64,000 nt of DNA, from assembly GCF_002252635.1 (NCBI RefSeq), contig NZ_NQKX01000007.1, forward strand, positions 62,001 through 126,000, read 5' to 3'. Shown piece by piece: positions 15,688 through 34,621 of the stretch. Source of the stretch: Synechococcus sp. MW101C3 (GTDB taxonomy: Bacteria > Cyanobacteriota > Cyanobacteriia > PCC-6307 > Cyanobiaceae). Made by a program: the position numbers and the translations under genes. Within the stretch, counting starts at the first letter, position 1; the number at the start of each line of letters is the position of its first letter. Under the pieces are notes generated by a model, which worked only from the letters and a program-made list of their open reading frames with translations, was not told the origin of the DNA and did not search any database.

Positions 15688-16140
15688 ATGGGTCTGGAGA
15701 TCACGGCTGCATCGCTCGGCTCCCCTGAGCACCACCCGGGAGTTCTCTACAGCTACAAGGACAACACAGTGCCGGCCACCTGCTCGAGGAGTTTCTGGTT
15801 CCTGCACAAGAGTAAGAAAGTCTGGTTCAGGTTGGATGACAAGCTCAGGGAGCTGCCGCTGGAGACAGCCTTTTACTACCGAGGCCGGAGGATTCTCTAC
15901 AGCGGTGATCTGGGGAGTCTTCCGAAGGAGAGCCGGAGGTCACTGGAAGCCACCAGCATCATCTGGGGCCAGCACCTGGCCAATGGTTGGGGGCGGGGAC
16001 CGGAGGGAACCAATTACTACCTTCACCTCTGGACGCGGTGGTCGATCTTTCAACCTGCCCGATGCCATCCCGAGTCCTTCAGCATGACCCACCGGCCCCT
16101 GCATCCGCCGTCAGGGGGTGGCTCAGGCACAGGACATTGA
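15688..16140 (+). CDS. Unrecognised small protein, possibly secreted
   Basis: About 150 residues, not recognised. It is rich in aromatic residues (SYKDNTVPATCSRSFWFLHK, TNYYLHLWTRWSIF) and shows no known motif. A TTG at 15649 would add a weak signal-like N-terminus. The 3' end overlaps the convergent RsbW-like gene by about 60 bp and its last 25 residues are Pro/Gly/His-rich, suggesting the true end may have been lost by a frameshift. Its codon use is less GC-rich than the flanks. It could be a decayed accessory gene. Confidence 0.4.
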   Translation: MGLEITAASLGSPEHHPGVLYSYKDNTVPATCSRSFWFLHKSKKVWFRLDDKLRELPLETAFYYRGRRILYSGDLGSLPKESRRSLEATSIIWGQHLANGWGRGPEGTNYYLHLWTRWSIFQPARCHPESFSMTHRPLHPPSGGGSGTGH

Positions 16141-16576
16141 TGCCGTCGTCCTCCCTGCAGTAGCTGATCGTCCAGCCATACTCCTTCTGAAGCTTCAGAA
16201 ACATCACCAGCCCCCAATGGGCCTCCCTGGCCAGGGGGTCCGAACCACTGGCGGCGATCTCGGCTTCCACCCTGACCAGTGCCGACGCCAGATCAAAGGC
16301 TTCGCCGTGGTCGACAATCTGAAGGCGCACCAGGCGGCTGCTCCGCTGCAGCGCGAGCTGCACCTGTGGTGGCGACAACAGGTGGGCATGGGCATGGCGC
16401 ACGGCGTTGGTGAACCCTTCCACAAGAGCCAGCTGGGCCTGCATCCAGACATCGGCGGGCACGTCGGGGTGGCCCAGTCCCTCGAACCAGCTGAGGACAA
16501 GCTCAAGCTGATTGAGATCACTGCTGACCGCAAGCTGCCCATCCGGCACGAAATCTGCCGCCATGGGCAGACTCAT
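16079..16576 (-). CDS. RsbW-like serine kinase / anti-sigma-type ATPase
   Basis: A 165-residue stand-alone HATPase_c_2 (GHKL) domain. The N box is EGFTNAVRHAH (E53, N57, H61), the G1 box is VDHGEAFD (D89), and the G2 region is HWGLVMFLKL. In partner-switching systems such proteins phosphorylate a conserved serine of a STAS partner and bind either the STAS protein or another target. Its ATG overlaps the stop of the STAS-phosphoglycosyl transferase gene by 4 bp, so that fusion protein is the obvious substrate. No sigma factor gene is nearby, which argues against a classical anti-sigma role here. Confidence 0.88.
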   Translation of the reverse strand: MSLPMAADFVPDGQLAVSSDLNQLELVLSWFEGLGHPDVPADVWMQAQLALVEGFTNAVRHAHAHLLSPPQVQLALQRSSRLVRLQIVDHGEAFDLASALVRVEAEIAASGSDPLAREAHWGLVMFLKLQKEYGWTISYCREDDGINVLCLSHPLTADAGAGGSC

Positions 16577-17574
16577 GCTGCCCCCGAATCCTTGCTGAGC
16601 AGCACAAGGAATGTTCTGGCGATCAGTCGGAGGTCGTAGCCCAGACTCCAGTTCTGCTGGTAGCGGAGGTCGAGCTTGATCACATCTTCGAAATCACGGA
16701 TGGAAGAGCGGCCATTCACCTGCCATTCCCCACTCAGCCCGGGGCGCACATCAAACCGCTGCCAACTGGGAATGGCGTAGCGACGCACCTCATCCGGGGT
16801 GGCTGGCCGCGTTCCGATCAGGCTCATGTCGCCGATCAGCACGTTCCAGAACTGGGGCAGTTCATCGAGGCTGGTCTTGCGCAGGATGCGGCCCACTTTG
16901 GTGATCCTGGGGTCATTGTCATTCTTGAAGAAAGCGCCCTGGGCCTGGTTCGCCACACTGCCTTTGAGGGTCTCGGCATCGCTCACCATCGAGCGGAACT
17001 TCCAGATGCGGAAATGACGGCCCATCCAGCCGCAGCGCACCTGACTGAACAGGATTGGCCCCGGGCTGTCCAGGCGGATGGCCACGGCCAGGGGCAGGAA
17101 CAGCAGCGCCGTGATCCCCAGGCCGACGAGTGCGCCACAGATGTCCATGAACCGCTTGATCCCGGAGCGCACCGAAGGGTGGGTGAGGGGGGGGCGCTGG
17201 TCCTCAACGTGGGAGAGCTGGGGGAGCAGGCCCTCGGAATGGGCTGCCATCGGCAACAGCTTCTCCAGCCCCGTCAACTGCAGGGCCAGGAACACCTGCC
17301 GGTGCAGGCTCCAGGCGCAGAGGGGAACGGCCCGCTCCTGGACGGCCTTGATGGCGCCGACCAGGGCACCGATGCCGCTGCTGTCGATGCTGGCCGTCCT
17401 GCCGAAATCCAGGATCACTTCGCGCAGATCCTCCACCTCCTCAAGCCAGCCGCAGAAACCGGCGCGGAAAGCCACGGCCTCAGTGACGGTCAGCCGTGGG
17501 GGCAGCTGGAGAATCAGCACCCCGTTCTGAACGGTTCTGACCACAGCCGCGTTGGGAGAAGGGTGAGCTGTCAT
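16573..17574 (-). CDS. STAS domain fused to an initiating phosphoglycosyl transferase
   Basis: 333 residues with two clear domains. Residues 10-115 form a STAS (anti-sigma antagonist) domain with the phosphorylatable DSSGIGAL motif (S65/S66). Residues 138-333 form a bacterial sugar transferase of the monotopic PGT class (WcaJ/PglC/RfbP-like), with a hydrophobic re-entrant helix (about 145-168), KFRSM, the catalytic Asp-Glu pair in SLDELPQF (D237, E238), GTRPATP and the RPGLSGEWQV segment. Such enzymes attach the first sugar phosphate to undecaprenyl phosphate at the inner membrane. The ATG at 17574 overlaps the upstream stop (ATGA) and is preferred over a codon at 17607. A directly fused regulator on this committed step is unusual. 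Confidence 0.93.
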   Translation of the reverse strand: MTAHPSPNAAVVRTVQNGVLILQLPPRLTVTEAVAFRAGFCGWLEEVEDLREVILDFGRTASIDSSGIGALVGAIKAVQERAVPLCAWSLHRQVFLALQLTGLEKLLPMAAHSEGLLPQLSHVEDQRPPLTHPSVRSGIKRFMDICGALVGLGITALLFLPLAVAIRLDSPGPILFSQVRCGWMGRHFRIWKFRSMVSDAETLKGSVANQAQGAFFKNDNDPRITKVGRILRKTSLDELPQFWNVLIGDMSLIGTRPATPDEVRRYAIPSWQRFDVRPGLSGEWQVNGRSSIRDFEDVIKLDLRYQQNWSLGYDLRLIARTFLVLLSKDSGAA

Positions 17575-18050
17575 GCCGGAGAAAAGTGGCTCTGCAGACT
17601 GCGACACAGGGACTGGGCGGAGCTATCGGTCACGTCGCTGATCGAGGTCTTGAAAGGCGCCAGAAGAAAGCGAACCAGATCGCCCGGGCTCCAGGCGATC
17701 GGCACCCCCATTTCCGTCAGTGCCAGGGCGAGTTCCACCTGATGATCATCCACATGCTCCTGGTAACGCACACTGCGGGGAACAAGAATGAAGGGCTGCT
17801 GCATCTCATCGAGCAACAGCACCGTGCCCTCTCCGCAGTGGGCAATCACCACCCGGGCCCTCTGCACGAGGGCCCGAAACGACTCCTCCTTCAACAGCCG
17901 ATACACGGTGGTGCCACTGGGGAGAAACGTACAGGTGCCGTATTGAACGACGATCTCTTCATCGATGAGCTCTTGTTGGATCAGCAGCTCCACCCACTGC
18001 ATCAGCCGATTGAAGGGGAACTGCTCTGTTCCGACACTGACGAGAATCAT
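17571..18050 (-). CDS. Alg13/EpsF-like glycosyltransferase subunit (GT28 C-terminal domain)
   Basis: A 159-residue protein with the GT28 C-terminal fold: MILVSVGTEQFPFNRLM, VVIAHCGEGTVLLLDE and the nucleotide-sugar-binding ILVPRSVRYQEHVDDHQ. In eukaryotic Alg13 and bacterial PssE/EpsF this is the catalytic half of a split glycosyltransferase that binds the donor and needs an Alg14-like membrane partner. The partner is encoded immediately upstream with a 4-bp overlap. Together they probably add the second sugar to the lipid-linked precursor made by the neighbouring phosphoglycosyl transferase. Confidence 0.9.
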   Translation of the reverse strand: MILVSVGTEQFPFNRLMQWVELLIQQELIDEEIVVQYGTCTFLPSGTTVYRLLKEESFRALVQRARVVIAHCGEGTVLLLDEMQQPFILVPRSVRYQEHVDDHQVELALALTEMGVPIAWSPGDLVRFLLAPFKTSISDVTDSSAQSLCRSLQSHFSPA

Positions 18051-18502
18051 GATCCGAGCTTGCCCTGGACAAGTTCGGCCCGGGGATAGCGACGCTGCAG
18101 CTGGGGCCAGTGCACATAGAGGATGTCCAGGAAGGGTCGCACCAGCCGCGCCGACAGGCTGAGCGTCTCAATGCGGGTCACGGACTCGATGAACACGGTC
18201 TTGCATCGAAACAGCTTACCGAGAAGAAGAAAGGGAACAGCCACACCGGCGCCGGTGGAAAGAATCACGTCTGGCTGCTCTCTGCGGATCACCTGCAACG
18301 CCAGCCCCAGGTTGCGCAGCAGATTCGGCAGGTTGCGATTCGTGGGGCTGTGGGCCCAGAGCACCTGTTCATCGGCCAGGGCCGTTTCCGTCGTGGGCGT
18401 TCGAAACGTGACCCAGAGATGGGGATGGCGCCCCCAGAAATCGGCCAGCTGCTGCAGCGCCTTGAAATGCCCCCCTGAAGAGCAGACCAGGAGGATCTTC
18501 AT
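18047..18502 (-). CDS. Alg14/EpsE-like glycosyltransferase membrane subunit
   Basis: A 151-residue Alg14/PssD family protein starting MKILLVCSSGGHFKALQQL (the GGH segment is conserved), with STGAGVAVPFLLLG in the middle and VFIESVTRIETLSL near residue 110, all family hallmarks. It recruits the Alg13-like catalytic half to the membrane. ATG 18502 overlaps the stop of the preceding GT2 gene by 4 bp, and its stop overlaps the start of the Alg13-like gene by 4 bp. In-frame sequence farther upstream is not conserved. Confidence 0.91.
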   Translation of the reverse strand: MKILLVCSSGGHFKALQQLADFWGRHPHLWVTFRTPTTETALADEQVLWAHSPTNRNLPNLLRNLGLALQVIRREQPDVILSTGAGVAVPFLLLGKLFRCKTVFIESVTRIETLSLSARLVRPFLDILYVHWPQLQRRYPRAELVQGKLGS

Positions 18503-19530
18503 CGGCTCAGTTCCCCACGCAGGCGCCGCTGCTGACTGGCCCCCGTGGAGCGCAGCATCAGACCCTCCAGCCAGCGATAGGGAGCCTCCGGCAACAGCCG
18601 CAGCAGGTAGGCGGCCAGCAGCGTGATCAAGGTACGTCGCGGTTCCTCGAGCAGCACCCTCCAGTCGGTGGCCAGGGATTGGTGCAGCAGACGCACGGCC
18701 AGGGCGCCGTCCCGCTGGCGGGTGGCCCGGCGGGCCAGGTAGCGCAGCTGATAGGCGCGGGCCCTGGAGCCCCATTGGGCGATGAATTCGGGGTGGGTGG
18801 CTTTGGTCTTGAGCAGAACCCGCTCCCAGGAGGCGTACTGCTTCATCAGATTGGCCGAGAGTCCGCCGTCGCTGATGCGGTAGAGCGTCAGTGCCTCGGG
18901 GATTCCCTCGATCCGCCAATGGGTCTGCAGCGCAATCCGCAGCCAGCACTCAATGTCTTCGGACTGTCGAAAGGTGTCGTCAAAGAAGAAGTCTTCCACT
19001 TCGCCATAGAGATTCGCCTCAAAGCGAATGGCGTCAAAGACGTCTCGGCGGATCACCACAGCTGAGCCATTGCCGATCGGATTGCGGCAGAAGACGATCT
19101 CCGGCGTGATGCCCTGCAGCCTCGGCATCTGGTAGATCCCGATCGGCCTGGAGCTCTCATCGATGAATCCGGAGCGAGAAAAGCTGACACCCACCTCCGG
19201 CCGCGCTTGCAGATGGGCCACATGCCGCTCCACCTTGGTGGGAAGCCACAGATCGTCGCTGTCCAGAAATCCGAGGAACTCCCCTTTGGCCTGCCGGATG
19301 CCTGTGTTCCGCGCCCCGGCCAGGCCCCGGTTCTGCTGATGCACCACCCGAACGCGCCCGTCCCCATACCCCTGGCAGATCGCCACCCCGTCATCGGTGG
19401 AGCCATCGTTCACCACCAGGATCTCCAGGTTGGGGTAGGTCTGGCTGAGAACGGATTCCAGGCTTTCCCTCACCGTGGCGGCGGAGTTGTAGAGCGGCAT
19501 CACCACTGAGACCAGGGGGGATTGGCTCAT
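18499..19530 (-). CDS. GT2 family glycosyltransferase
   Basis: A 343-residue GT-A fold glycosyltransferase: SVVMPLYNSAATVRESLESV, VNDGSTDDG, the GARNTGI segment and the metal-binding DSDD (DxD) at about 96-99. Domain covers about 1-230; the C-terminal 110 residues are helical and basic and are shared with the next gene (YLARRATRQRDG and DWRVLLEEPRRTL). Cytosolic or membrane-associated; it should add a sugar to the growing repeat unit. Start at the ATG 19530 is at the usual distance from the first strand. Donor and acceptor unknown. Confidence 0.93.
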   Translation of the reverse strand: MSQSPLVSVVMPLYNSAATVRESLESVLSQTYPNLEILVVNDGSTDDGVAICQGYGDGRVRVVHQQNRGLAGARNTGIRQAKGEFLGFLDSDDLWLPTKVERHVAHLQARPEVGVSFSRSGFIDESSRPIGIYQMPRLQGITPEIVFCRNPIGNGSAVVIRRDVFDAIRFEANLYGEVEDFFFDDTFRQSEDIECWLRIALQTHWRIEGIPEALTLYRISDGGLSANLMKQYASWERVLLKTKATHPEFIAQWGSRARAYQLRYLARRATRQRDGALAVRLLHQSLATDWRVLLEEPRRTLITLLAAYLLRLLPEAPYRWLEGLMLRSTGASQQRRLRGELSR

Positions 19531-19570
19531 GTCAGTGCGCTCACAGGCAGAGGGGCATTGGCGAAGGTCA

Positions 19571-20581
19571 TCATGGCCGTGCCTCGTCGTGGCGGCCACC
19601 CAGGCGGCGGAAGGGGGCCAGCAGCTGTCGGGCGAAGACGGCGAGGGCCGTGAGCACGGTACGGCGCGGCTCCCGCAGCAGGATCCGCCAATCCGAGCGC
19701 AGGGAGCGCAGCATGAAATCGGTGCCGATGGCGGGGGCTCCTCCGAGGCGCAGGGAGCGCCGGGCCAGGTAGCGCAGGTGGATGGCCTGGGCCGTGGCGA
19801 AGTGGTTCGCCACCAGCTCGGGCGCATAGCCACGGGCTTCGCTGATCAGCCGCAGCCAGCCCTGTTCCATGCGTTGCAGGCTCGAGGAGAGCCCACCGGC
19901 CGAGGTGCGGTAGTAGGTGAGCACCTGGGGCAAGCCGGCGATCTGCCAGCGGCCATCGCAGGCCACCCGCAGCAGCCATTCCAGATCCTCCGAATAACTC
20001 ATGTCGGTGACGAATCCGCCCACTGCGTCGAACACCTGCCGCCGCAGCACCCAGTTCGACGTGGTGTTGGTGGGGTTCTCACAGAGAAAATCCACCGGCC
20101 GATGCGATTCCCGGGGCAGGGCCGCCAGCAGGCCGGTGGGTGTTCCCCCAGGGGACAGGAACGCGATGCGGGCGAAACTCACGCCGACATCAGGATGGTT
20201 GGCGTGGTAGGCCACATGTAGGCGCAGTTTGTCGGCATGCCAGAGGTCATCGGCATCGAGAAAGGCGATCAGGGGCGCACGGCTGAGGGCCACCCCGCGA
20301 TTGCGGGCGATCGAGACTCCCGCGTTGGGCTGGCTTACCAGGTGCACCCGGGGATCGTCCCCAAACAGGCGCGACACGATCGCGAGGCTGTCGTCAGTGG
20401 ATCCGTCATCAACAGCGATCAGTTCCCAGTTGCTCAGGCTCTGGTTCTGCACGGAGCGCAGGGTTTGCTCGATGTGTGGCGCCGCGTTGTAGATCGGTAC
20501 CACCACGGAAATGGCCGGGTCGTCCAGTTGTTCAGGGTCAGGAACCACCGCAGCTGTCCCGTGGTGATGAAGGTTCACCAT
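19571..20581 (-). CDS. GT2 family glycosyltransferase, paralogue of the downstream gene
   Basis: A 336-residue GT2 enzyme with ISVVVPIYNAAPHIEQTL, VDDGSTDDS, SIARNRG and the DADD metal motif. Its C-terminal extension repeats features of the downstream GT2 gene (HLRYLARRSLRLGG, SDWRILLREPRRTVLTAL), so the two arose by tandem duplication and diverged in the acceptor-binding part. ATG 20581 gives a 20-residue leader. Function in repeat-unit assembly is inferred from position only. Confidence 0.93.
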   Translation of the reverse strand: MVNLHHHGTAAVVPDPEQLDDPAISVVVPIYNAAPHIEQTLRSVQNQSLSNWELIAVDDGSTDDSLAIVSRLFGDDPRVHLVSQPNAGVSIARNRGVALSRAPLIAFLDADDLWHADKLRLHVAYHANHPDVGVSFARIAFLSPGGTPTGLLAALPRESHRPVDFLCENPTNTTSNWVLRRQVFDAVGGFVTDMSYSEDLEWLLRVACDGRWQIAGLPQVLTYYRTSAGGLSSSLQRMEQGWLRLISEARGYAPELVANHFATAQAIHLRYLARRSLRLGGAPAIGTDFMLRSLRSDWRILLREPRRTVLTALAVFARQLLAPFRRLGGRHDEARP

Positions 20582-20589
20582 CGTGGTGG

Positions 20590-21483
20590 CTACGACGTAT
20601 GGCTGGAGCGGTGGCCACCCAGAAGACGACGCAGGACGGCCCTGATGCGTCCCATCAGGGTGATCCGGATCATCCGCAGGCGTTTGGCGTAGTAATCGAA
20701 CTGGTTGATGATGGGCGGCTGACCCTCCTGGAAGTGGTTCAGTTGGCGCGCAGGCAGCAACTTGGATGTCCAGTCGACGGAGTCGATATGGCGAAACTGT
20801 TCGTGGCCGTAGCGGGCCTGAAGCTTCTCCTTGATCTGGTCAGGCGTGCGGTAGGGGTAGTGGCGATTGTAGAGACGCTGCGAGCAGGCTTTGGTGAGTC
20901 CGTTGGGCCACTGTGGGGCCACCGCTACGTTCCAGGGCTGATGGGGTTGGTTGCGGAAGAAGCGGTACTCTCGCCAATTGGCCGAGTAGTACAAGCGCCG
21001 TTCGGTGATGGGACGGTGGGGTTCAAGCTTCTCAGCCGCCCAATTCTTGTAATCGGCATCCGTGTAGTAGAACTGCAGATTCCAGGCCGTCACGAAATCG
21101 GCTTTCTCACGGTTGGCCGTGGCCAGCACCTCTCTGGGGTCCCCTTCGAGGAACTCATCCCCATCGAGCCGTAGCCACCAATCCTGATCAGCCAGTTCGT
21201 GGTTGTGTTTGTTGTAGACGATCGAGCGCATCCCATCGCGGAATGGGATCAGGAGCTGGTCCTCGATCACAATCGCCGGATAGTGCTGTGCCAGGGCATT
21301 CACGGTTTCCCAGGTTCCATCGGTGCTGCCGTTATCGAGAACGAAAATGCGATCACAGAACGTCAGCGCATGAATCAGACAATCCGCAATGACGTCGCCC
21401 TCATTCTTGATCAGACAGATGGCGTAGATCTTCACGCGTGAATCGGGCGGGAGGACGGTACGGCCTGCTCCGATGGCACCCAT
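20590..21483 (-). CDS. GT2-like glycosyltransferase of the IKNEGD type
   Basis: A 297-residue glycosyltransferase-like protein. YAICLIKNEGDVI and DNGSTDGTWE mark the GT-A nucleotide-binding part and LDGDEFL the DxD motif (about residues 93-98). The family (often called glycosyl transferase family 2 / LgtF-like) is frequent in cyanobacterial polysaccharide clusters. The start may lie 16 codons later at a GTG (21435), just before KIYAICLIKNEG; the ATG 21483 is kept. It is 8 bp upstream of the next GT2 gene, so one transcript is likely. Acceptor unknown. Confidence 0.88.
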   Translation of the reverse strand: MGAIGAGRTVLPPDSRVKIYAICLIKNEGDVIADCLIHALTFCDRIFVLDNGSTDGTWETVNALAQHYPAIVIEDQLLIPFRDGMRSIVYNKHNHELADQDWWLRLDGDEFLEGDPREVLATANREKADFVTAWNLQFYYTDADYKNWAAEKLEPHRPITERRLYYSANWREYRFFRNQPHQPWNVAVAPQWPNGLTKACSQRLYNRHYPYRTPDQIKEKLQARYGHEQFRHIDSVDWTSKLLPARQLNHFQEGQPPIINQFDYYAKRLRMIRITLMGRIRAVLRRLLGGHRSSHTS

Positions 21484-21610
21484 GGCACCACCGATGTGAC
21501 CCGGGACTGGGGCGGGGCCAGTGAGGCTTGAAACATTTCCATCACCCTAACCGCGCGCTGGCAGCGGCCTCCATGGGAAAGGACTTGGGCCTCAGGCTTG
21601 CGACGGTGCG

Positions 21611-22891
21611 TCAAAGGCTGGCCGGCTGGGCCACCTGAATCCTTCGCAGCAGCCGTTGCCCCATCATCAGGTAGATCGGCTGAAGCGTGAGATGGGCCGC
21701 TGCCACGGACACGGCCACACCCAGGGATCCCCAGGACGTGCCGATCAGGATGGCGACGGTAAGGGCCACCGTGAAGGCCAGGTTCCAGAGCAGATCCACC
21801 TGGGGCATGCCTACGGCGCGGAACAGCATCGAGGAGGCGTTGGCGAAGGGTCGGGACAGGGCCGACAGGCAGATCAGCATCAAGATCGGCACGGCACCCT
21901 CCGTCACCCACTTCTGACCAAAAACGATCGGTACATAGAGAGGGGCCAGGCTGCATTGCAACGCCACAACGGGCACGATCACCTTGGTGATAGTGAGCAA
22001 GTTCTTGCTGAAGCGCTGCTTGAGTTCGGCGGGTTGGCTTCTGACGTCACAGAAGTCGGAGTAGATGGAGACGGACAGGGCATTGATCACACTCAGGCTC
22101 AGACCCAATCCAGCGTTGAAGGCGAAGTAGTACACCCCAAGTGCTTTGACACCGATGAAGCGACCGATCAAAAGATAATCAACATTCTCGCGGAACGTGT
22201 TGAGCATCTCCACACCCAGGATGCGACTGCCGAATCCCAGCACGGATTTCCAACGTTTGAGGGTGAACGTCATGACGGGGCGCCAGGGTTCAAACCGCAG
22301 CATCATCGCGACCCAGACCGGAGCCACCAGCAACTTGGGCAGTACAATCGCCCACATGCCCATCCCAAACAGCGCAAAGATTCCGGTCAGCAGATTGTCG
22401 GTGACGACCGCCGTGAGATTGGTCAAGCTGTAGAACTTGAGCCTGTTTTGCCTGCGTACCAAGGCCGTCTGGACCATGGCGAGTGGGTAGATCAGATAGC
22501 TGAAACTCACCACAATGATTGGCAGGATCAGTGCGTTGTCGCTGTAAACGCGGGCAAAGATAAACGAACCAATGATCTGCACGACAAAGAGGCTAAAGCC
22601 GATCAGCCAGTTCAGGCTCCATGCCGTCTGGCAGATCTCTTGGACATCCTCCGCATCGGCCTGCACGATCTTGTCCCCGATGCCGTTGCGTGTGAAGACC
22701 TTGACAAGCTCGCCGGACGTCAACACGATGGCGGCCAGGCCATAGTCCCTGGGGCTCAGCAGCCTGGCCAACAGCACTGTGGCCACGAGACGCGAGACGC
22801 GAATCCCCACCTCCCCCACCCCCATCCAGCCGATGTTGCGGATGAATCGATCCTTCGGGATGAAACTCTTCAGCTGGCTGAGCAGACGCAT
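21611..22891 (-). CDS. Wzx-like oligosaccharide flippase (MOP superfamily)
   Basis: About 426 residues with about 12 predicted membrane helices, the RNIGWMGVGEVGIRVSRLVATVLLARLLSPRDYGL opening region typical of polysaccharide biosynthesis transporters (shown here by its LARLLSPRDYGLAA core), and LVRRQNRLKFY in a cytoplasmic loop. It would flip the lipid-linked repeat unit across the inner membrane. ATG 22891 is chosen over a preceding TTG. Sequence stretches here are less GC-rich than the core genes. Confidence 0.9.
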   Translation of the reverse strand: MRLLSQLKSFIPKDRFIRNIGWMGVGEVGIRVSRLVATVLLARLLSPRDYGLAAIVLTSGELVKVFTRNGIGDKIVQADAEDVQEICQTAWSLNWLIGFSLFVVQIIGSFIFARVYSDNALILPIIVVSFSYLIYPLAMVQTALVRRQNRLKFYSLTNLTAVVTDNLLTGIFALFGMGMWAIVLPKLLVAPVWVAMMLRFEPWRPVMTFTLKRWKSVLGFGSRILGVEMLNTFRENVDYLLIGRFIGVKALGVYYFAFNAGLGLSLSVINALSVSIYSDFCDVRSQPAELKQRFSKNLLTITKVIVPVVALQCSLAPLYVPIVFGQKWVTEGAVPILMLICLSALSRPFANASSMLFRAVGMPQVDLLWNLAFTVALTVAILIGTSWGSLGVAVSVAAAHLTLQPIYLMMGQRLLRRIQVAQPASL

Positions 22892-23058
22892 CAAAGGTCT
22901 ACCCCACGGTTAAGACTCAAGTGGCAAAGCAACGGCCACAGAGTGTGTCCCCACAGGCAGAGCGGTCGAGACCGCAACAACACTACTGGCCATGCTGTTG
23001 CCTTCAGAATGCTCGTCATGGCATCAAGGTGTCTCACGGCTGGCGGATTGGGTGTGAA

Positions 23059-24390
23059 TCACGGTACGGGAAGTATTTCTGACTGGAGCGGGCCTTTGCT
23101 CTCCTGTAGAGCCATTCCCATGATAAGCATTCCAGGCCAAAAAAGGTAGACTAGAATCTCCAGATTCTCGCCAAATGTATACATGAACAAGAGAATAATG
23201 ATTCCCAGCCCGGCTGAGCCAAGTTGATAGCGGGGACTGGCTGCACGGCGCAATAGATCAAGCGCTGTAACCAACATGGGAACAGCCAGAGCGACGAAGC
23301 CAACAATACCCTTCACAAAAAGCACTCCGGCCCAGGTGTGATGGGAACCAATGGCCATGTACTCAACGAGATGGGGGCCGCCCTCTACGACACCATGTCC
23401 CCAAATCGGAGCCTCTGTCTCCCAGCGATGGAAGGCGATGCGCTTTAAGGCAAAGCGAACACGCGTAGAGCCAGCCCGAGCACCTTTGAACCCTTCCCAG
23501 TAGTCGCTGATGGCGGTAAGAATAGACGTAGCAAAGATTCCTCCAAGATAGGAAACAACCCCAAGAGAAATCAGCATGAATGGTTGACGCAGCCTGGATA
23601 CCACTGCCGTAACGGCTGGAATCAGGATGATGCAGAGCTGGGCAAGACGCGACTTGCAGACGAAGCACATGAGGATCGAGCCAATGATGCCCAGAACCTT
23701 CCATTTCCGATCTTTTTCCAGCAGACAGATCATGAAGTTGATATTGCCGACAAACCCAAGAGCAGGCCCCCATGGAGCGAAGAGCCGCCAGCGAAGGTCA
23801 CCGGTGCTACCGTCAATCTCGTAGAGTGGAACGTCAAAGAATTCATTTCCTGGACCACCGACGGCTCTCAATGGCGAAACATAGAGCACTTCTGGCAGGC
23901 CCAGATGCGGGGTTAGCAGAAGGAGCGGCATGATGAGGAGCGTATGAAAGCCCACGATGCAAATGGCACGCGTGGGGATGCTGCTCCGAATCGGCAGAGC
24001 TCCTGCTAACGGATAGAGCGCTAGGGCGGCCCACCCTTTGGCCCAACCAATCGTGGACTTGATGATAGCTCCAGTCCCGAGGTTGAAGTTCACATGTCCT
24101 GCAATTAAGGCAACTTCCATGATGATCATGCCGATGATCCAAAGCCAAATCACGGGTGATATGGAAATTTCTTCATTTTCCTCTGGGTGATCGATTCGGG
24201 CCAGAATCTTAATCAATAGGCAGCCCAGAAGCAGCCAGCAGAGAATAGACCCCACAACATAAAGGCCACCGAATAGCCAGATGGGGTAGGTGCAAACAAT
24301 CGACCACCAGACCAAACGCTCTGGCCAATTTCTCGGCTGAAGATCATCCTCAGACTGGAAGGCCCTTGAAAGAAGCGTTTTAAGTCCCAA
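23059..24390 (-). CDS. Wzy-like O-antigen polymerase / ligase family membrane protein
   Basis: A 443-residue polytopic protein with about 10-12 membrane helices and a large loop around residues 185-235, followed by CKSRLAQL and the conserved-type GHGVVEGG and GSHHTWAGVLF segments typical of O-antigen ligase/polymerase domains. It should join repeat units on the periplasmic side. The start appears to be TTG 24390, which lies about 7 nt after AAGGGG, a good ribosome site; no in-frame ATG lies nearby. It starts 14 bp before the end of the co-polymerase gene region. Polymerase versus ligase cannot be told from sequence. Confidence 0.82.
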   Translation of the reverse strand: MGLKTLLSRAFQSEDDLQPRNWPERLVWWSIVCTYPIWLFGGLYVVGSILCWLLLGCLLIKILARIDHPEENEEISISPVIWLWIIGMIIMEVALIAGHVNFNLGTGAIIKSTIGWAKGWAALALYPLAGALPIRSSIPTRAICIVGFHTLLIMPLLLLTPHLGLPEVLYVSPLRAVGGPGNEFFDVPLYEIDGSTGDLRWRLFAPWGPALGFVGNINFMICLLEKDRKWKVLGIIGSILMCFVCKSRLAQLCIILIPAVTAVVSRLRQPFMLISLGVVSYLGGIFATSILTAISDYWEGFKGARAGSTRVRFALKRIAFHRWETEAPIWGHGVVEGGPHLVEYMAIGSHHTWAGVLFVKGIVGFVALAVPMLVTALDLLRRAASPRYQLGSAGLGIIILLFMYTFGENLEILVYLFWPGMLIMGMALQESKGPLQSEILPVP

Positions 24391-24403
24391 TGAAGACCCC
24401 TTG

Positions 24404-25915: not shown

Positions 25916-25921
25916 TAGATT

Positions 25922-27614: not shown

Positions 27615-27625
27615 TCCCTGAAGGT

Positions 27626-28819: not shown

Positions 28820-29881
28820 GTGCGCATTGGCCTGATCAACGCCTACAGCACCCTGAATCTGGGGGATGCAGCGATCTACAGCGCCTTTCGTCAGTTGCTG
28901 CCTGATGTGGAGCTGGTGGGTTGCGTTCAGGATGAACGGCCCGATGCCACCCTTGGGGTCACGTTCTTGTCCGAACGGCCCAGGAATTGCGACGCTTACG
29001 TGAGCGTGGGGGGGGACATCTTCAACAATTCCCGTGAATGGTTTGTCACCAAAGCCTTCCTCAAGAACCTGGCTGAACTGAGGCACAGTCCGAACCGCAC
29101 CATCCTGTTCGGCCAGTCGATTCCTCGCTCCTGCCACGGCCTAAGCTTTCTCCTGTTGCAGCGGTATTTCAAGCGCCTGGCGGCTGTCTGTGTACGGGAT
29201 GCCGAAAGTCACCAGCGCCTCTGCGCCGCAGGGGTTCAAGCACGGTTGTCCTACGACATTGCCTTTGTGCTGGAGAGCTCCCCCCTGGCGGAGGCCACGG
29301 CGCGGCAATGCCTGGAGCGGCTAGGGATTGATCCATCCCAGGCAGCCGTCCTGTCTGTGCGTGGTTTCGACAGCATGTACGGCCACGACAATGAGGCCTT
29401 CGTTTCCAGAATGGCCCAGCTCAGCGTTGAACTCACCGAGGCCGGACTCAGGCCCGTCATTTTGATCCAATCGGGCGCCTATGGCTCCGATAATGATCTC
29501 GAAGTGGCCGCCGCCATCCAGGAACGGGCCCCCAGCACCGCCATCCTCAACCCGTTCGTCGCCGATCCAGCCGTGCCGAGTTGGCAGTTGGCCATGGCCC
29601 TGTTCGCTCTGGTCGACAGCGTGATTGCTGTACGTTTTCACACGGCCGTTCTTTCGCTGGCGGCCGGGCGGGTTCCGTACCATCTCCACTATTCCAACAA
29701 GGGCAGGGACCTCTGCCGGCGACTCGATCTACCCGGCTGTGATCTGGCCAGCCTGGTTCCTTCGTCGGCGCTGGAAGCGATTCTGGCCAGCCGCGGGCGC
29801 CGGTTCGATCATCAGCACGTGCGTGAACAGGTGCGCCGCGATTTCCGGTGGTGCCTCGATCAACTCCCCGCTGTGATCTGA
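28820..29881 (+). CDS. Polysaccharide pyruvyl transferase family protein
   Basis: A 353-residue protein of the CsaB/WcaK family, which adds pyruvyl ketals from PEP to sugars of exopolysaccharides. Family features: IGLINAYSTLNLGDAAIYSAF at the N-terminus (N-x-GD-A), VSVGGDIFNNS, FGQSIPR, CVRDAESHQRL, SYDIAFVL, and AVRFHTAVLSLAAGRVPYHLHY (H-x-AVL) in the C-terminal half. It starts with GTG. It is followed after 59 bp by the H-NOX gene in the same direction, which ties the polysaccharide and signalling loci. Pyruvylation would add negative charge to the polymer. Confidence 0.9.
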   Translation: MRIGLINAYSTLNLGDAAIYSAFRQLLPDVELVGCVQDERPDATLGVTFLSERPRNCDAYVSVGGDIFNNSREWFVTKAFLKNLAELRHSPNRTILFGQSIPRSCHGLSFLLLQRYFKRLAAVCVRDAESHQRLCAAGVQARLSYDIAFVLESSPLAEATARQCLERLGIDPSQAAVLSVRGFDSMYGHDNEAFVSRMAQLSVELTEAGLRPVILIQSGAYGSDNDLEVAAAIQERAPSTAILNPFVADPAVPSWQLAMALFALVDSVIAVRFHTAVLSLAAGRVPYHLHYSNKGRDLCRRLDLPGCDLASLVPSSALEAILASRGRRFDHQHVREQVRRDFRWCLDQLPAVI

Positions 29882-29940
29882 CGGTCGTCGTCTGGCCCCT
29901 TGGTTCCCTGAGCTAGATTCATCTATCTGGCCGTTCAACG

Positions 29941-30540
29941 ATGTACGGGCTTGTCAACCGGGCCATTCAGCAGATGGTCACCACCCACCATGGTGAGGAG
30001 GTGTGGCAGCGCATCAAGGAGCGGGCCGATCTCCAGGATCTGGATTTCTTTTCCACGTACCAGGCCTATCCCGACGACGTGACCCATCGGCTGGTGGCAG
30101 CGGCCACGGAGGAACTTGGCCTCACGGGTGATCAGATCATGCAGGCGTTTGGTGAGTACTGGATCACCTACACAGCCACGGAAGGTTACGAGCAGTTGCT
30201 CGAAAGCACGGGGGACACCTTGCCAGAATTCCTGGATCATCTCGATAATCTCCACGCCCGCGCCGCCCTGGCCTTTCCTGAGCTGCAGCCTCCCTCCTTC
30301 CGTTGCGAGCACAGTGCTGACGCCTCCATGCAACTGGAGTACCGTTCAAAGCGGCGCGGCCTTGCCCCCATGGTGACCGGCCTGCTTCATGGCCTGGGCA
30401 AGCGTTTTCGTACTCCACTGGCGGTCGATCAGGTCGCCTCACGCGACAGGGGCGATGCCACGGACCTGTTCCACGTTCGCCTTTCTCCGCCTTCCGAATC
30501 TGTCGCAGGTCGGCCGGATGACGGCATGACGAGCGAGTGA
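29941..30540 (+). CDS. H-NOX heme-based gas sensor protein
   Basis: A 199-residue stand-alone H-NOX (heme nitric oxide/oxygen binding) domain, starting [13 protein letters not shown]. The proximal heme ligand is H105 in LDNLHAR, followed by P117/P118 in PPSF, and the heme propionate-binding Y-x-S-x-R motif is Y134, S136, R138. The distal tyrosine that stabilises O2 in Thermoanaerobacter H-NOX would lie five residues after this Arg; here that position is Pro, so NO (not O2) is the expected ligand. A 40-residue tail follows the domain. The kinase gene 28 bp downstream has the matching HNOBA domain. Confidence 0.94.
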
Positions 30541-30568
30541 AGGTTCGTCGTTTCTGAAGGTGCCTTCC

Positions 30569-33076
30569 GTGCCGTTACCTGACCACCTTCTCGATCCCCT
30601 GTTCCCTTTCCATTTCGTCGTCGACCGAGAGCTACGTATCCAGTCCGTCGGCTCTGTTCTGCGTCGCATCCTTTCTGTCCCGGAGCTGTTGGGGCAGCCC
30701 CTCGATGAGCACTTCCTGCTCCTGCGACCGGATGTCCCCATGAACTTCGCCAGTCTGAGTGACTGCACAGACCGGCACGTGATTTTCAAGTCCGCCGCGA
30801 TTCCATTGCAACTGAAGGGCCAGATCTGTTGCCTTGACGAAAGGGAACAGCTGTTGTTTGTTGGTACGCCCTGTTTGCTGCAACTGGAGGATCTTAAGAC
30901 CCTCAGTCTAAAGATCAATGACTTTCCTTTGCATGACTCCCTGGTTGACTTTCTTTTCCTGCTGCAGGCCAGGAATGTGGCGCTCACAGAAAGCCAGAAG
31001 CTCAATGAGATTCTCATCACGCAGCGTGGGGAGTTGCGCGAGTCAACCCAGCGTCTGTCGACGCTCAATGCGGAGCTGCAGGCGGCCAAGCAGGCCGCTG
31101 AAGCCGCCAATGCCGCCAAGGATACGTTTCTGGCCACGATGAGCCATGAGATCAGAACTCCGATGAACGCCATCATCGGCATGGCCGGTTTACTTCAGGA
31201 CTCCCAGCTGGAGCCCATGGAGCGGGAGTATGTCGAGATCATCAACAGCAGCACCGATTCCCTGCTGACGATCATCAATGACATTCTCGACTTCTCGAAA
31301 ATCGAATCCGGTGCCATGCAGCTGGATGAGCAGCGCTTCAACCTCCGCATCTGCATCGAAGAGGCCCTCGATCTGAGCGTGTCCCGCCTCTTGGACAAGC
31401 AGCTGGAAATGATCCTCGACATCGAGCCCGGCCTGCCCACGGCTGTCATCGGCGACCTCACCCGTCTGCGCCAGATCCTCTGGAACCTGCTGAGCAATGC
31501 GGTCAAATTCACCCCCCAGGGCGAGATCGTCGTCACGGTGTCAGCGGAGCCCCAGGCCGCTGAGGCCGGTCAGCCGACCCCGTGCCAGTTCACGTTTCAG
31601 ATCCGCGACACCGGCATCGGTGTGTCCAACGCGCTGATTCCCCAGTTGTTCGAGCCCTTCCGCCAGGCCGATCCCTCCACCGCCCGGCGCTACGGCGGCA
31701 CGGGCCTTGGTCTGGCGATCACACGGCGCCTATGTGAGTTGATGGGGGGCTCGATCAACCTGGCCAGCCAGGAAGGCAAAGGCAGTGTCTTCACCTTCAA
31801 CGTGCTGCTGCATCTTGATCCGGCCCCCCAGGCCAGCAACAGCCCGGAGCCCCTGGTGCCGCCGGCGTCCGCCATCCTGCTGCTGGTCGGCAATCCCACC
31901 CTGCGCGCCGTGCTCCAGAAGCAGCTGAGCTGGATGGGGCTGTCGGTGATCGCCCCCGATCTCTGCCAGATCCCCATGCCGACCGCCCAGTCCCAGGTCG
32001 GCGACCTCGGCCCTGGCGTGGTGGTCATCGATGGGCGGCTGCTGTGCTCCGAAGGGGGGGCAACCCCGTCAGCCTTTCTGCAGGACCCCTTGCTTCAGCT
32101 GCGCCCCTGGATCGTCCTGGCTGACAGGTGCAAGGTGTCAGAGCTGGCAGCGCTGGCCAAGACGCCGGCTGTGATGCTCTCCAAGCCTGTGCGACTCGAA
32201 CAGCTCCGCCTGGCCCTGATTCAGCAAGGGCAGAGCCCTTTGGAGCGGCGGCTGGCCGGGCCGCCAACGCTGACGCGCGAATCTGCCCCCCAGGGCGGCC
32301 CCCATCGCCTCGCTGACCGGCTGCCGCTGCGGCTGCTCGTCGTCGATGACATCCCCGTGAACCGCCAGTTGGCGCTTCAGTTGCTGCAGCGGCTGGGTTA
32401 CCGGGCCGAGGCCGTGGCTTCGGGCTCCGAGGCGCTTGCGGCCGTGCAGGAGACCCCCTTCGACGTGCTGTTCATGGACGTGCAGATGCCGGAGCTTGAT
32501 GGTTACGCGACAACACGGGCGATCCGCTGTCTGCCGGCTCCCTTCGTGCAGCCCTGGATCATTGCCATGACGGCCCATGGCCGTCCGGAGGATCGCCAGG
32601 CCTGCCTCCAGGCCGGCATGGACGACTTTCTGGCCAAGCCGATCGTGCCTGCCCAGCTCACCTACGCCCTGGAGCACTACCAGCCGCGCGACCAACCCCA
32701 AGCGCCAACGGGTGGAGGGGCCGACCCGATCGACGCGGCCGCCTGGGAGGAATTGGAGCAAGCCATGGGAGACGGGGCGGCGGCCGTGCTCCAGGAGCTC
32801 ATCGACCTCTACCTCGAGGACGCGATGCGACTCGTTTCGGCGGTGGTGATGGCCCACCAGTACCACGATCCCCCGGCGATGATCGCCGCTGCCCATTCGC
32901 TGCGCTCCCCCAGTGCCAGCCTGGGGGCCCTGCGGTTGGCCACGCTGTGCGGCCAGGTTGAGGAGTCCCTGCGCTCCGATTCGGAGCTGTGGCCCCAGGT
33001 CAGAATCGATCAGCTGCTTGTCGAGGCTGGACGGGTGACCGAAGCGCTGCGCCAGCGGCGTCCAATGGACGCCTGA
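30569..33076 (+). CDS. Hybrid histidine kinase with HNOBA sensor domain, pseudo-receiver, receiver and Hpt
   Basis: About 835 residues. Residues 8-127 form an HNOBA (H-NOX-associated) domain, the same domain that follows H-NOX in guanylate cyclase: [37 protein letters not shown] coiled coil leads to HisKA (H193 in MSHEIRT) and HATPase_c (N-box [24 protein letters not shown]). Then comes a degenerate receiver (about 435-550; acidic pair replaced by VGN), a complete receiver (D637 in LFMDVQMP), and an Hpt domain (H776 in [14 protein letters not shown]). GTG 30569 is favoured because GAAGG lies 8 nt before it; GTG 30560 is the alternative. It should relay NO signals from H-NOX to response regulators. 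Confidence 0.93.
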
Positions 33077-33081
33077 CGCCG

Positions 33082-34254
33082 ATGGAAGGTTGTCCCGCCC
33101 CGATTTCGATCCTGCTGGTGGATGACGATCGCATCCATTCCCGCATCCTCGAGGTCCGTCTACGCGCCCAGGGCTACCAGATTGTTGTGGCGGATTCGGG
33201 TGACAGTGCCCTGGTGCAGGCCCGTCTATGCCCCCCCACGGTCGTCGTCTGCGACTGGCTGATGGACGGCATGAATGGGCTGGACGTCTGCCGGGCGTTC
33301 AAGGCGGAACCGGCCCTGGAATCGGCCCACTTCATCCTGCTGACCTCACGCTCCCGGGTGGAAGACCGGGTGGAGGGGCTCGACTGCGGCGCCGATGATT
33401 TCCTCAGCAAGCCGGTGGATCCGGAGGAGCTGCTGGCCCGGGTCCGCTCCGGCATCCGCCTGCACCAGGCCAATGAACGGCTGAAGCTCCTGGCGAGTGA
33501 GTTGCATCAGCAGAAGTTGCGGCTGGATCAGGAGCTGGAGGAGGCGGCCAGTTATGTGCGATCCCTGCTGCCTGAGCCCATCGCTGGTGCCGTGCGGGCG
33601 GACTCCCGTTTCGAGCCCTGCCATGAACTGGGTGGTGATTCGTTTGATTTCTTCTGGCTTGATGACGACCACTTCGTCCTCTACCTCGCCGATGGCTCCG
33701 GCCATGGCCTGGCGGCGGCCTTCCCCTCGATTTCCGTCCACAACCAGCTGCGCTCCCGCTCGCTGCCCGTTGATCTGCGTGATCAGGGCGCTGTGCTGCA
33801 CACCCTGAACTCCGGGTTTCCGATGGAGCGTCACCAGGGGCGGTATCTGACGCTTTGGTATGGGGTTTATCAGCCCTCCAGCCGAACCCTGAGTTTTGCC
33901 AGCGCGGGCCATCCCCCAGCCTTTCTCTGGAGCCGCACCAGTGCCTTTCCCTGCCATTGGCTCAAAGGTCAGGGCATGGCCGTGGGCCTGTTCGACGACG
34001 CGACCTATGGCACCGAGAGCCTGGAGGTGGGCGAAGGGGCCTGTCTTCTCATCTACAGCGATGGCCTCTATGAAGTGCCGAGGCCCGGTGGCTTGATGGG
34101 GACACTGCCCGACTTCATGCAACTGGTGGAGCAGTGCCAAGACGTGCTCGCTGATGACGATGGCCTGGATCGGTTGCTGTCCCAGATCCTCCACGTCTCG
34201 GACAATGCGCCATTCACCGATGACTACTCGCTGATCCGGGCGCTGCTGTCGTGA
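33082..34254 (+). CDS. Response regulator with PP2C-type Ser phosphatase output (RsbU/SpoIIE-like)
   Basis: 390 residues. An N-terminal receiver (about 8-125) has DDD at 14-16, phospho-acceptor D58 in VVCDWLMDGMNG and K in FLSKPVD. A helical linker follows (130-165, ELHQQKLRLDQELEEAASYVRSLLP). The PP2C-like SpoIIE domain (about 165-390) keeps the metal ligands: GGDSFDFF, LADGSGHG, YSDGLYE and FTDDYSL. It lies 5 bp behind the hybrid kinase, so it is the likely phospho-acceptor of that kinase's Hpt. In partner switching it would dephosphorylate STAS-domain proteins. It converges with a free STAS gene. Confidence 0.94.
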   Translation: MEGCPAPISILLVDDDRIHSRILEVRLRAQGYQIVVADSGDSALVQARLCPPTVVVCDWLMDGMNGLDVCRAFKAEPALESAHFILLTSRSRVEDRVEGLDCGADDFLSKPVDPEELLARVRSGIRLHQANERLKLLASELHQQKLRLDQELEEAASYVRSLLPEPIAGAVRADSRFEPCHELGGDSFDFFWLDDDHFVLYLADGSGHGLAAAFPSISVHNQLRSRSLPVDLRDQGAVLHTLNSGFPMERHQGRYLTLWYGVYQPSSRTLSFASAGHPPAFLWSRTSAFPCHWLKGQGMAVGLFDDATYGTESLEVGEGACLLIYSDGLYEVPRPGGLMGTLPDFMQLVEQCQDVLADDDGLDRLLSQILHVSDNAPFTDDYSLIRALLS

Positions 34255-34276
34255 TCGTTACGGGCCTTCTGGTTGT

Positions 34277-34621
34277 TCAGGTGTCGGTTGAGCCGCCCGA
34301 TTGATCGGCAGCCAATGCGGCGAAGCATGCCTCACTGTTCGGAAACGTGGTGAACACTTTTTCGGTGCCGGTGAGGTCCAGCACGATGCGGACCTGGCTG
34401 CACAGACCGCAAAGAAACAGTTGCTGACCTTGCTCCTTGACCCGTTTGAGCACGGAAACCAGAGCGCCGAATCCGCTGCTGTCCATAAAGTCGACGCCCT
34501 GGCAATCAATCAGGATGTCCCTGGGTTGCTCTGCAAGAACTGAACCGACAGACTGCCGCAACTCAGCGCCACTCTGGGCGTCGAGCAGGCCCATGGGTTT
34601 CAGGATGTACAGATTATCCAC
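34277..34621 (-). CDS. Stand-alone STAS domain protein (anti-sigma factor antagonist type)
   Basis: A 114-residue STAS domain with the conserved phosphorylation motif DSSGFGAL (S48/S49) after the DILIDCQGVDFM strand. Such proteins (SpoIIAA/RsbV) are phosphorylated by RsbW-type kinases and dephosphorylated by SpoIIE/RsbU-type phosphatases. It is convergent with the receiver-PP2C gene (22-bp gap), which is its likely phosphatase. It is also related in motif to the STAS half of the phosphoglycosyl transferase fusion at 16.6 kb. Its own downstream partner is unknown. Confidence 0.93.
   Translation of the reverse strand: MDNLYILKPMGLLDAQSGAELRQSVGSVLAEQPRDILIDCQGVDFMDSSGFGALVSVLKRVKEQGQQLFLCGLCSQVRIVLDLTGTEKVFTTFPNSEACFAALAADQSGGSTDT

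Follow-up and report, generated by a model that had tools for sequence, protein, structure and literature searches.

A candidate partner switch aimed at the initiating phosphoglycosyl transferase of a cyanobacterial polysaccharide cluster

The textbook role of partner switches is the control of sigma factors and gene expression; for several STAS proteins from biofilm or polysaccharide loci no target is known to us. Here we ask what such a switch might control in a 64,000-nucleotide stretch of Synechococcus sp. MW101C3 (the window), where its parts lie around a polysaccharide cluster. A preliminary description had picked out an RsbW-like kinase, a STAS domain fused to a phosphoglycosyl transferase (PGT), a receiver-PP2C phosphatase and a free STAS protein, with the phosphatase behind an H-NOX and an HNOBA-domain kinase. 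Pfam searches find all four parts where it had placed them and bear out that arrangement, the sensor kinase being an HNOBA-kinase-receiver-Hpt hybrid. The reading that we favour, and hold to be moderately probable, is a partner switch that is fed by a phosphorelay and has as its output the initiating PGT of a Wzx/Wzy-type pathway rather than a sigma factor. The features on which the argument draws are as follows.

16079..16576, minus strand: RsbW/SpoIIAB-like serine kinase (Pfam HATPase_c_2, E 5e-13)
16573..17607, minus strand: STAS fused to an initiating monotopic PGT (Pfam STAS, E 4e-11; Bac_transf, E 4e-63)
17239..17535, minus strand: STAS domain of the fusion, residues 25-123 (Pfam)
17380..17382, minus strand: Ser76 codon of the fusion, predicted phospho-acceptor (DSSG; conservation and helix start in the model)
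16597..17157, minus strand: Bac_transf catalytic domain of the fusion, residues 151-337 (Pfam)
17571..26965, minus strand: remaining Wzx/Wzy-type polysaccharide cluster, with PssE-like, PssD-like, GT2, flippase, polymerase, Wzz-like and Wza-like genes (ORFs)
28820..29881, plus strand: polysaccharide pyruvyl transferase-like gene between both blocks (ORF; homologues in relatives' clusters)
29941..30540, plus strand: H-NOX haem sensor (Pfam HNOB, E 4e-52)
30560..33076, plus strand: HNOBA-histidine kinase-receiver-Hpt hybrid (Pfam HNOBA, HisKA, HATPase_c, Response_reg, Hpt)
33082..34254, plus strand: receiver-PP2C (SpoIIE/RsbU-type) phosphatase (Pfam Response_reg, E 2e-23; SpoIIE, E 6e-34)
34277..34621, minus strand: RsbV-like free STAS protein, its gene convergent with that of the PP2C (Pfam STAS, E 1e-20)
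34478..34480, minus strand: Ser48 codon of the free STAS, predicted phospho-acceptor (D47 and S48 invariant, 16/16 aligned)
38745..39716, minus strand: GAF-GGDEF diguanylate cyclase, a neighbour conserved in the family (Pfam)

The kinase and fusion genes, both on the minus strand, are joined by an ATGA start/stop overlap, the fusion beginning at either GTG 17607 or ATG 17574. The H-NOX, HNOBA kinase and PP2C genes all run on the plus strand, separated by 19 and 5 bases, and the free STAS gene lies outside this operon because it is on the minus strand and convergent with PP2C. Genes of the polysaccharide cluster have homologues in relatives; within it the PssE-like gene has a family match, the PssD match stands above its cut-off and the Wza-like gene matches an export protein weakly, while the Wzy- and Wzz-like ORFs gave no family match in the scan of the family library. 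The names Wzx, Wzy, Wzz and GT2 are putative readings from sequence and gene order, as that of the pyruvyl transferase is from its sequence. Sigma-70 region 2 had no match in the window, which thus lacks the linked sigma factor of a sigma-output partner switch; eight matches lie elsewhere in the genome, making an unlinked sigma factor possible.

Each protein retains the residues that such a switch would need. The kinase is a HATPase_c_2 serine kinase with an N-box, as in RsbU/V/W-type switches; its residues E53 and N57 are present in the window copy and invariant in 16/16 aligned sequences, and the DxG motif is lost in the most divergent kinase (G054, L081). Its profile finds RsbW as best PDB match (6m36, E 1.8e-9), with histidine kinases and SpoIIAB weaker (E 2e-5 to 6e-4), and both kinase and STAS match chains of the RsbW:RsbV and SpoIIAB:SpoIIAA complexes (PDB profile search and Foldseek). 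The phosphatase is a SpoIIE-type PP2C with intact metal-binding aspartates (D186, D204, D327 and D380/381), invariant in 13/13 aligned copies (alignment A3, without the interrupted G005 copy, L061), and its receiver keeps D15, D58 and K110. The free STAS retains its D-S acceptor at D47 and S48 (alignment A4, without L081:8117 and a fused domain of L061).

In the fusion, a profile search of the PDB matches WbaP, PglC and, weakly, SpoIIAA, and an AlphaFold2 model (pLDDT 86) matches PglC, WbaP, SpoIIAA and RsbV in Foldseek. With its Bac_transf catalytic domain and PglC/WbaP fold the protein belongs among the monotopic PGTs and is, from its sequence and model, a candidate transferase on undecaprenyl phosphate. 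Ser76 is the first residue of the model's helix 76-91, a position that we take to be that of the phospho-acceptor in SpoIIAA, and both fused and free STAS thus carry a phosphorylatable residue at a helix start, as in partner switches. D75 and S76 are invariant in 51/51 aligned fusions (alignment A5, using 50 of 59 loci and leaving out L114 and L121 (both broken), L142 (cut), L115 (second STAS copy upstream), L124, L127, L133, L141 and L147; alignment A1 holds 11 of 13 relatives' fusion ORFs, not L070 and L085, and A2 omits L077 and L085 (cut)). The acceptor reads DS in 57 fusions and DT in one, L141, in a count covering 58 of the 59 fusion loci (L121 left out). We also asked whether DSSG is kept only where a kinase is present, which is not so: most fusions with no recognised kinase nearby keep it, and DSSG alone is therefore no proof of phosphorylation by the RsbW-like kinase.

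The preliminary description had further proposed that the two blocks belong together, and comparison between genomes upholds this. Across 181 genomes of the family (PP2C cut-off E <= 1e-30, kinase E <= 1e-6), the kinase occurs in 17 and the PP2C in 14; all 14 carry both, and no PP2C without kinase was found among the 181. This co-occurrence has a hypergeometric probability of 2e-18, or 2e-8 at genus level, both figures ignoring kinship. The parts are genetically linked, as in known partner switches: both blocks fall within 43 kb in 13 of the 14, G054 having them 526 kb apart, and the free STAS adjoins the PP2C in all 14, the window genome included. Against this strong correlation, either locus standing alone is confined to three of the 17 kinase genomes, G077 (88% complete), G023 and G154, which lack the PP2C; the latter two, being near complete, are real exceptions. 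STAS and PGT sequence lies beside the kinase in 15/17, intact in 12, frameshifted in G005, with an in-frame stop in G048 and internally deleted in G077; in G154 only the PGT end is seen and in G023 none. In G005, a metagenome-assembled genome, fusion and PP2C are both interrupted.

In the wider genome collection, 59 of the 80 best loci are STAS-PGT fusions. In these fusion stretches the kinase is found in 40, and PP2C (14) or H-NOX (10) never occurs without it. Eleven Nostocales loci hold both blocks, with fusion and kinase followed by the free STAS in 11/11, PP2C within 10 kb in 11/11, an HNOBA kinase in nine and H-NOX in eight; in two, L098 and L103, all six genes are colinear. In five kinase-bearing loci outside both main groups (L115, L122, L124, L127 and L129), neither PP2C nor free STAS was seen within 10 kb. 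Kinase-bearing fusions from Nostocales/Acaryochloris group with those from Cyanobium/Synechococcus in a single clade (34/34, support 100/99), and the free STAS proteins do likewise (26 rows, support 96/85; the tree also swept in fused domains, and this clade alone was used). The PP2C tree had very long branches and no inference was drawn from it. Nor did we retain an argument pairing kinase and phosphatase by elimination. The window genome (99.99% complete) has few of each, with two stand-alone RsbW-like ORFs above the Pfam cut-off, one 458-aa ORF barely above it and three matches below, two SpoIIE phosphatases, and five STAS domains, two of them within ORFs (586 and 647 aa) about as long as SulP permeases. 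Five Nostocales circuit genomes carry 12-20 HATPase_c_2 matches each (E <= 0.001, histidine kinases included), so the pairing rests on adjacency.

Taken together, the circuit may be a modular partner switch aimed at polysaccharide initiation, phosphorelay-fed in most relatives. We infer its phosphotransfers, the competition for binding, how the PGT is affected and the sign of each step. The RsbW-like kinase would bind and/or phosphorylate the N-terminal STAS of the PGT, restraining (or releasing) the enzyme, and the free STAS would compete for the same kinase. Phosphate from a sensor kinase would, via Hpt, tune the receiver-PP2C, which would dephosphorylate the free STAS and possibly its fused counterpart too. 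The sensor would be the H-NOX/HNOBA pair in the window genome and other histidine kinases, standing before the same phosphatase, in relatives. The switching of polysaccharide production may in this way act directly on its first step, here and in distant relatives in which the genes lie close together.

An alternative that we consider unlikely is direct phosphorylation of Ser76 in the STAS-PGT by the kinase and its reversal by the receiver-PP2C, with the free STAS as a buffer or phosphatase regulator and no obligatory relay. Ser76 is conserved, and in G285 (L192) fusion, kinase and PP2C are present and a free STAS was not found in the 19 kb read. Coevolution within the family also fits: kinase, fused STAS, PssD and GT2 form one block and free STAS, PP2C and receiver another, with mirror-tree correlations of 0.81-0.93 inside blocks and 0.34-0.53 across them (-0.03 to 0.31 when partial on the PGT; 0.34-0.73 across blocks with Nostocales added). 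The cross-block correlation being weak, mirror-tree gives no support for specificity between blocks. However, the free STAS is a constant neighbour of the PP2C in the family and adjoins the kinase in all 11 Nostocales loci, the order expected if the kinase is shared.

The same weak correlation would suit two separate outputs, a reading to which we give rather little credence, in which the PP2C/free STAS block mainly controls another target (either transcription or the GAF-GGDEF cyclase, cf. SiaC-SiaD), with the kinase/fusion block standing apart. The GAF-GGDEF gene lies at the cluster edge in 13/14 family circuits, and this cyclase is a possible second output. Against separation, PP2C was never found without kinase in the family, both blocks meet in the 11 Nostocales loci, where no GAF-GGDEF-type cyclase was matched, and sigma-70 region 2 has no match in the window. 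That the fused STAS instead takes the place of the N-terminal part found in large PGTs, as a domain for scaffolding or dimerisation, free of phospho-control and co-occurring through inheritance of one polysaccharide cluster, seems improbable: 19/59 fusions have no recognised kinase nearby and dimer formation can matter for PGT activity (EpsZ/WbaP, in the excerpts of PMC12802240), but the D-S or D-T is kept in 58/58 fusions, an RsbW-type kinase accompanies every member of the 34-member clade, and G054 keeps both blocks despite their distance.

The favoured partner switch on the PGT resembles RsbU-RsbV-RsbW-sigB and SpoIIE-SpoIIAA-SpoIIAB-sigF of Bacillus in its PP2C, STAS protein, HATPase_c_2 kinase and conserved D-S acceptor, and, in Nostocales, in the consecutive order of presumed target gene, kinase and free STAS; unlike these, the window has no sigma factor gene and the presumed target is a membrane enzyme with its own STAS. 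SypE-SypA of Vibrio fischeri is likewise a STAS switch at a polysaccharide locus. In the excerpts available, SypE is both kinase and phosphatase and SypA a free protein (PMC4517449), whereas kinase and phosphatase are separate genes here and the STAS is fused to the PGT; SypA acts below transcription via a still unnamed protein target, and the downstream target of HmpU-HmpV-HmpW is also given as unknown (PMC10120452). The latter is a cyanobacterial partner switch of Nostoc punctiforme, lying in a locus for hormogonium motility and polysaccharide, for which the excerpts mention no STAS-PGT fusion (PMC8256260). In Myxococcus xanthus an initiating PGT, EpsZ, is under post-translational control, as proposed here, by the phosphorylation-dependent small protein EpsW; unlike our circuit, EpsW is a single-domain response regulator acting in trans on a large PGT, and STAS goes unmentioned in the available text (PMC12802240). 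The STAS-glycosyltransferase fusion as such is already in print: Anabaena all4160 has an N-terminal STAS and a glycosyltransferase (PMC8256260, citing Wang 2007) and expression tied to heterocyst envelope polysaccharide genes (PMC4390870), with no kinase or switch mentioned for it in these excerpts. Among the matches listed from the open full-text literature (e.g. the best 12 of 1,988 and best 20 of 136; subscription papers lie mostly outside, and this is no proof of absence), none describes a phosphoglycosyl transferase under the control of a partner switch.

If the favoured reading is true, a STAS joined to the enzyme by which undecaprenyl phosphate is committed to polysaccharide would directly reveal one target of the STAS proteins at polysaccharide loci, and phosphoserine-based control would reach a pathway whose lipid carrier is common to other glycoconjugates. 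SypR acts as the PGT in V. fischeri. In the excerpts available, its deletion is described as abolishing SYP-dependent biofilm. More tentatively, and with some doubt, partner switching could be a reversible post-translational gate on an enzyme, an RsbW-type kinase holding or phosphorylating the STAS handle of the initiating PGT while various sensors, NO included, toggle lipid-linked sugar synthesis without transcription; by the logic of the natural fusions, free STAS proteins of polysaccharide loci with no known target (e.g. SypA, on SypR) might likewise act on the initiating PGT. This would give a named hypothesis for the SypA target.

As for the input, the preliminary description had put the circuit under NO control, which has partial support, being likely for the window and faltering in relatives. 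The window H-NOX keeps H105 and YxSxR, the haem site of an H-NOX NO sensor, and with its HNOBA partner makes NO the likely signal in this genome. NO-bound H-NOX usually inhibits its kinase, from which we would expect NO to lower PP2C activity, leaving the free STAS phosphorylated and the kinase on the STAS-PGT, so that polysaccharide falls. Among the 14 family circuits, however, H-NOX is absent from six, broken in two and without its proximal His in two (His105 is replaced in G005 and G174). Where H-NOX is missing, its place before the phosphatase is taken by other histidine kinases; the sensor kinase varies and phosphatase and switch are kept. With H-NOX defective or absent in 10/14, NO can be no more than one interchangeable input.

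We therefore rejected the idea that H-NOX defines the system, against which it also counts that, in the phylum sample, 17 of the 24 genomes with H-NOX have no circuit-type kinase (a line of 195 bits, set by eye) and that circuit H-NOX genes do not form one clade against the others (2 changes on the tree), an earlier 100/100 H-NOX clade having been tested against three cyclase-linked copies only. An H-NOX beside an HNOBA-bearing protein is familiar from the Nostoc Alr2278 family and HnoX of V. fischeri. Because the window H-NOX is so like Alr2278 (103/181 residues identical), we considered the latter as part of the circuit and do not claim it. Away from the circuit, 13 of 16 H-NOX genes adjoin a shorter HNOBA protein (476-497 aa), with no PP2C or STAS match in any of the 16 stretches around them; in the window, unlike at those loci, the gene before the PP2C encodes a hybrid kinase that includes a receiver and an Hpt domain, an arrangement that would place a cyanobacterial haem NO sensor in a concrete, testable circuit.

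Comparative genomics strongly supports the view that the RsbW-like kinase, the fusion of a STAS domain to an initiating phosphoglycosyl transferase (PGT), the receiver-PP2C phosphatase and the free STAS protein act as one circuit, whose biochemical steps we infer throughout. Translation and Pfam searches of the window recovered every domain named in the preliminary description:

16079-16576, minus strand: RsbW-like kinase (translation and Pfam)
16573-17607, minus strand: STAS-PGT fusion (translation and Pfam)
34277-34621, minus strand: free STAS, convergent with the PP2C gene

The kinase and fusion genes share an ATGA overlap on the minus strand, and H-NOX, HNOBA kinase-receiver-Hpt and receiver-PP2C form a plus-strand run with intergenic gaps of 19 and 5 bases. 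Judging from ORF reading with partial family support, a single Wzx/Wzy-type polysaccharide cluster probably fills the space between the kinase/fusion block and the sensor/PP2C/free STAS block; the two blocks would therefore be the two ends of one cluster. Further genes lie downstream, one for a small PAS-like protein (34830-35177) and two for hybrid histidine kinases (35185-36813 and 36693-38732); in three family genomes (G035, G090 and G051), homologues of the PAS-like protein and the first hybrid kinase replace the H-NOX/HNOBA pair before PP2C.

The proposal that the two blocks belong to one system was borne out, both by loci of the Nostocales that hold the two together and by a sample of 181 Cyanobiaceae genomes, evenly drawn out of a larger group. 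Here the kinase (E <= 1e-6) is present in 17 genomes and PP2C (E <= 1e-30) in 14, all 14 carrying both on one contig, 5.9-42.8 kb apart in 13 and 526 kb apart in the remaining one (hypergeometric 2e-18 counting genomes and 2e-8 counting genera, without correction for kinship). The free STAS gene adjoins PP2C, convergently, in 14/14 circuits. STAS and PGT sequence adjoins the kinase in 15 of 17 genomes, intact in 12 and damaged in three by a frameshift (G005), an in-frame stop (G048) or an internal deletion (G077); in G005, a MAG, PP2C is also interrupted by an in-frame stop. The kinase occurs without PP2C in G077 (88% complete) and in G023 and G154 (99-100% complete), and the latter two are real exceptions to the pairing. 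In G154 the kinase lies near the contig start and the PGT end alone is visible; G023 has no STAS-PGT sequence beside the kinase, and the surrounding 36 kb showed, apart from a GAF-GGDEF gene fragment, none of the other parts.

Beyond the family, scanning the genome collection with the fusion alignment and keeping the best 80 of 251 relatives yielded 59 STAS-PGT fusions, with cyanobacterial record titles in all but one (L141, labelled Gracilibacteria, which may be mis-binned). Of the 59 stretches, 40 contain the kinase. Counting up to 10 kb from the fusion, we found PP2C in 14, free STAS in 15 and H-NOX in 10, and none of the 59 has PP2C or H-NOX without the kinase. PP2C of the Cyanobium/Synechococcus group lies mostly more than 10 kb from the fusion, and five loci (L115, L122, L124, L127 and L129) have the kinase with neither PP2C nor free STAS within 10 kb. 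All 11 kinase-bearing Nostocales loci show the order fusion, kinase, free STAS, and the same locus holds PP2C in 11/11, the HNOBA kinase in 9/11 and H-NOX in 8/11: L105 ends inside the next kinase, L100 lacks a sensor kinase over the last 2.8 kb of its contig, and in L108 the HNOBA kinase stands without an adjoining H-NOX. A further fusion in the Nostocales, the twelfth (L123, Scytonema), stands without a kinase in its vicinity. The six circuit genes lie on one strand within ~8 kb in Trichormus sp. NMC-1 (L098) and Anabaena sp. UHCC 0204 (L103). Among cultured strains, Calothrix sp. PCC 7103 carries every part at its locus (L101), and fusion and kinase were observed in Synechococcus sp. WH 5701 (L107). 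In the fusion tree, the proteins accompanied by a kinase from Nostocales/Acaryochloris (12) and from the Cyanobium/Synechococcus group (22) fall into a single clade (support 100/99), and free STAS proteins from the two lineages likewise group as a clade (96/85).

Variant architectures were also seen. A Microcoleus vaginatus MAG (L126 9989-14789) has fusion, kinase, GAF-PAS-PAS-PP2C and free STAS, so that the sensor is part of the phosphatase itself, and no histidine kinase was matched in the stretch. Two loci carry two free-STAS domains in a single open frame after the kinase (L111 11539-12222 and L118 11522-12205), and an Acaryochloris MAG has an extra STAS copy directly upstream of the fusion (L115 9947-11355).

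The circuit parts look active from their conserved residues. Kinase N-box E53/N57 and free STAS D47-S48 are unchanged in 16/16 aligned sequences, the aspartates of receiver and PP2C in 13/13, and fused STAS D75-S76 in 51/51; a wider set of 58 fusions has D-S in 57 and D-T in one. Against the PDB, the top match of the kinase profile is RsbW (6m36, E 1.8e-9), with histidine kinases and SpoIIAB weaker and lower-ranked, while matches for the fusion are WbaP and PglC, plus a weak one to SpoIIAA over its first part. Foldseek with the AlphaFold2 model of the fusion (pLDDT 86.4, pTM 0.78) returned PglC, WbaP and STAS proteins, among them the partners of SpoIIAB and RsbW in co-crystal structures. Ser76 starts a helix in this model, a place we take to be equivalent to the phospho-acceptor position of SpoIIAA.

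A classical partner switch comprises target, kinase, STAS and phosphatase; here the target position is occupied by the STAS-PGT fusion. The kinase would engage the STAS handle of the PGT, free STAS would compete for the same kinase, and the phosphorelay would set PP2C, which would in turn determine the amount of unphosphorylated free STAS. The main rival is that phosphate is removed directly from the fused STAS. Family sequence distances fall into two sets, tight inside and loose across: kinase, fused STAS, PssD and GT2 in one, free STAS, PP2C and receiver in the other. This pattern fits PP2C acting on free STAS and fits an exchangeable input module, but is no proof of contact between the modules. 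A GAF-GGDEF diguanylate cyclase may be a second output of the circuit, its gene (window 38745-39716) standing at the cluster edge in 13/14 family circuits and having no match in the 11 Nostocales loci. Across the whole genome (G000), two RsbW-like ORFs that stand alone exceed the cut-off (a further 458-aa ORF being barely over), alongside two SpoIIE phosphatases and five STAS domains; the eight sigma-70 region 2 matches of this genome all fall outside the window.

Among the literature matches listed, none describes a partner switch on a PGT. Anabaena all4160, a glycosyltransferase with an N-terminal STAS, is named in a review (PMC8256260). In EpsW-EpsZ a phosphorylated response regulator is reported to control the initiating PGT directly; STAS goes unmentioned there (PMC12802240). 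In V. fischeri, SypA is described as working below transcription via an unknown protein target (PMC10120452) and biofilm formation as reduced by NO (PMC11112999).

Control by NO, as originally proposed, is plausible in this genome; it is not a general feature of the circuit. H-NOX and the HNOBA kinase are present in 8/14 family circuits; of the eight H-NOX genes, that of G048 is truncated and that of G131 split in the assembly, and two more have lost proximal His105 while keeping YxSxR (His to Asp in G005, L054 1483-2082; His to Tyr in G174, L066 7662-8345). The other four, the window copy included, look functional. It seems that the haem sensor decays or changes role, the rest of the circuit staying. 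The remaining six circuits have other histidine kinases near PP2C; of the four searched with Pfam, three gave weak PAS or GAF matches below curated cut-offs and the fourth no assigned sensor domain. The sensor of the circuit is thus interchangeable.

Across 339 genomes sampled from the phylum, 24 carry H-NOX and eight a circuit-type kinase (>195 bits, a line drawn by eye); seven of these eight also have H-NOX, linked in four. HNOBA kinases stand in the circuits of G218 and G236, with H-NOX elsewhere in the genome. G285 has H-NOX and a hybrid HNOBA kinase elsewhere; its circuit (L192 8572-11703) comprises fusion, kinase and receiver-PP2C, and the 19 kb spanning the fusion gave no match to a free STAS or a sensor kinase. 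Away from the circuit, none of 16 stretches around H-NOX gave a match to PP2C or STAS, and 13 of the 16 H-NOX genes adjoin a 476-497-aa HNOBA protein that matches the kinase profile weakly at best. A second H-NOX type in the family, from genomes without circuit kinase or PP2C (G062, G139 and G149; loci L086, L087 and L088), adjoins HNOBA-bearing proteins, two of them HNOBA-GGDEF.
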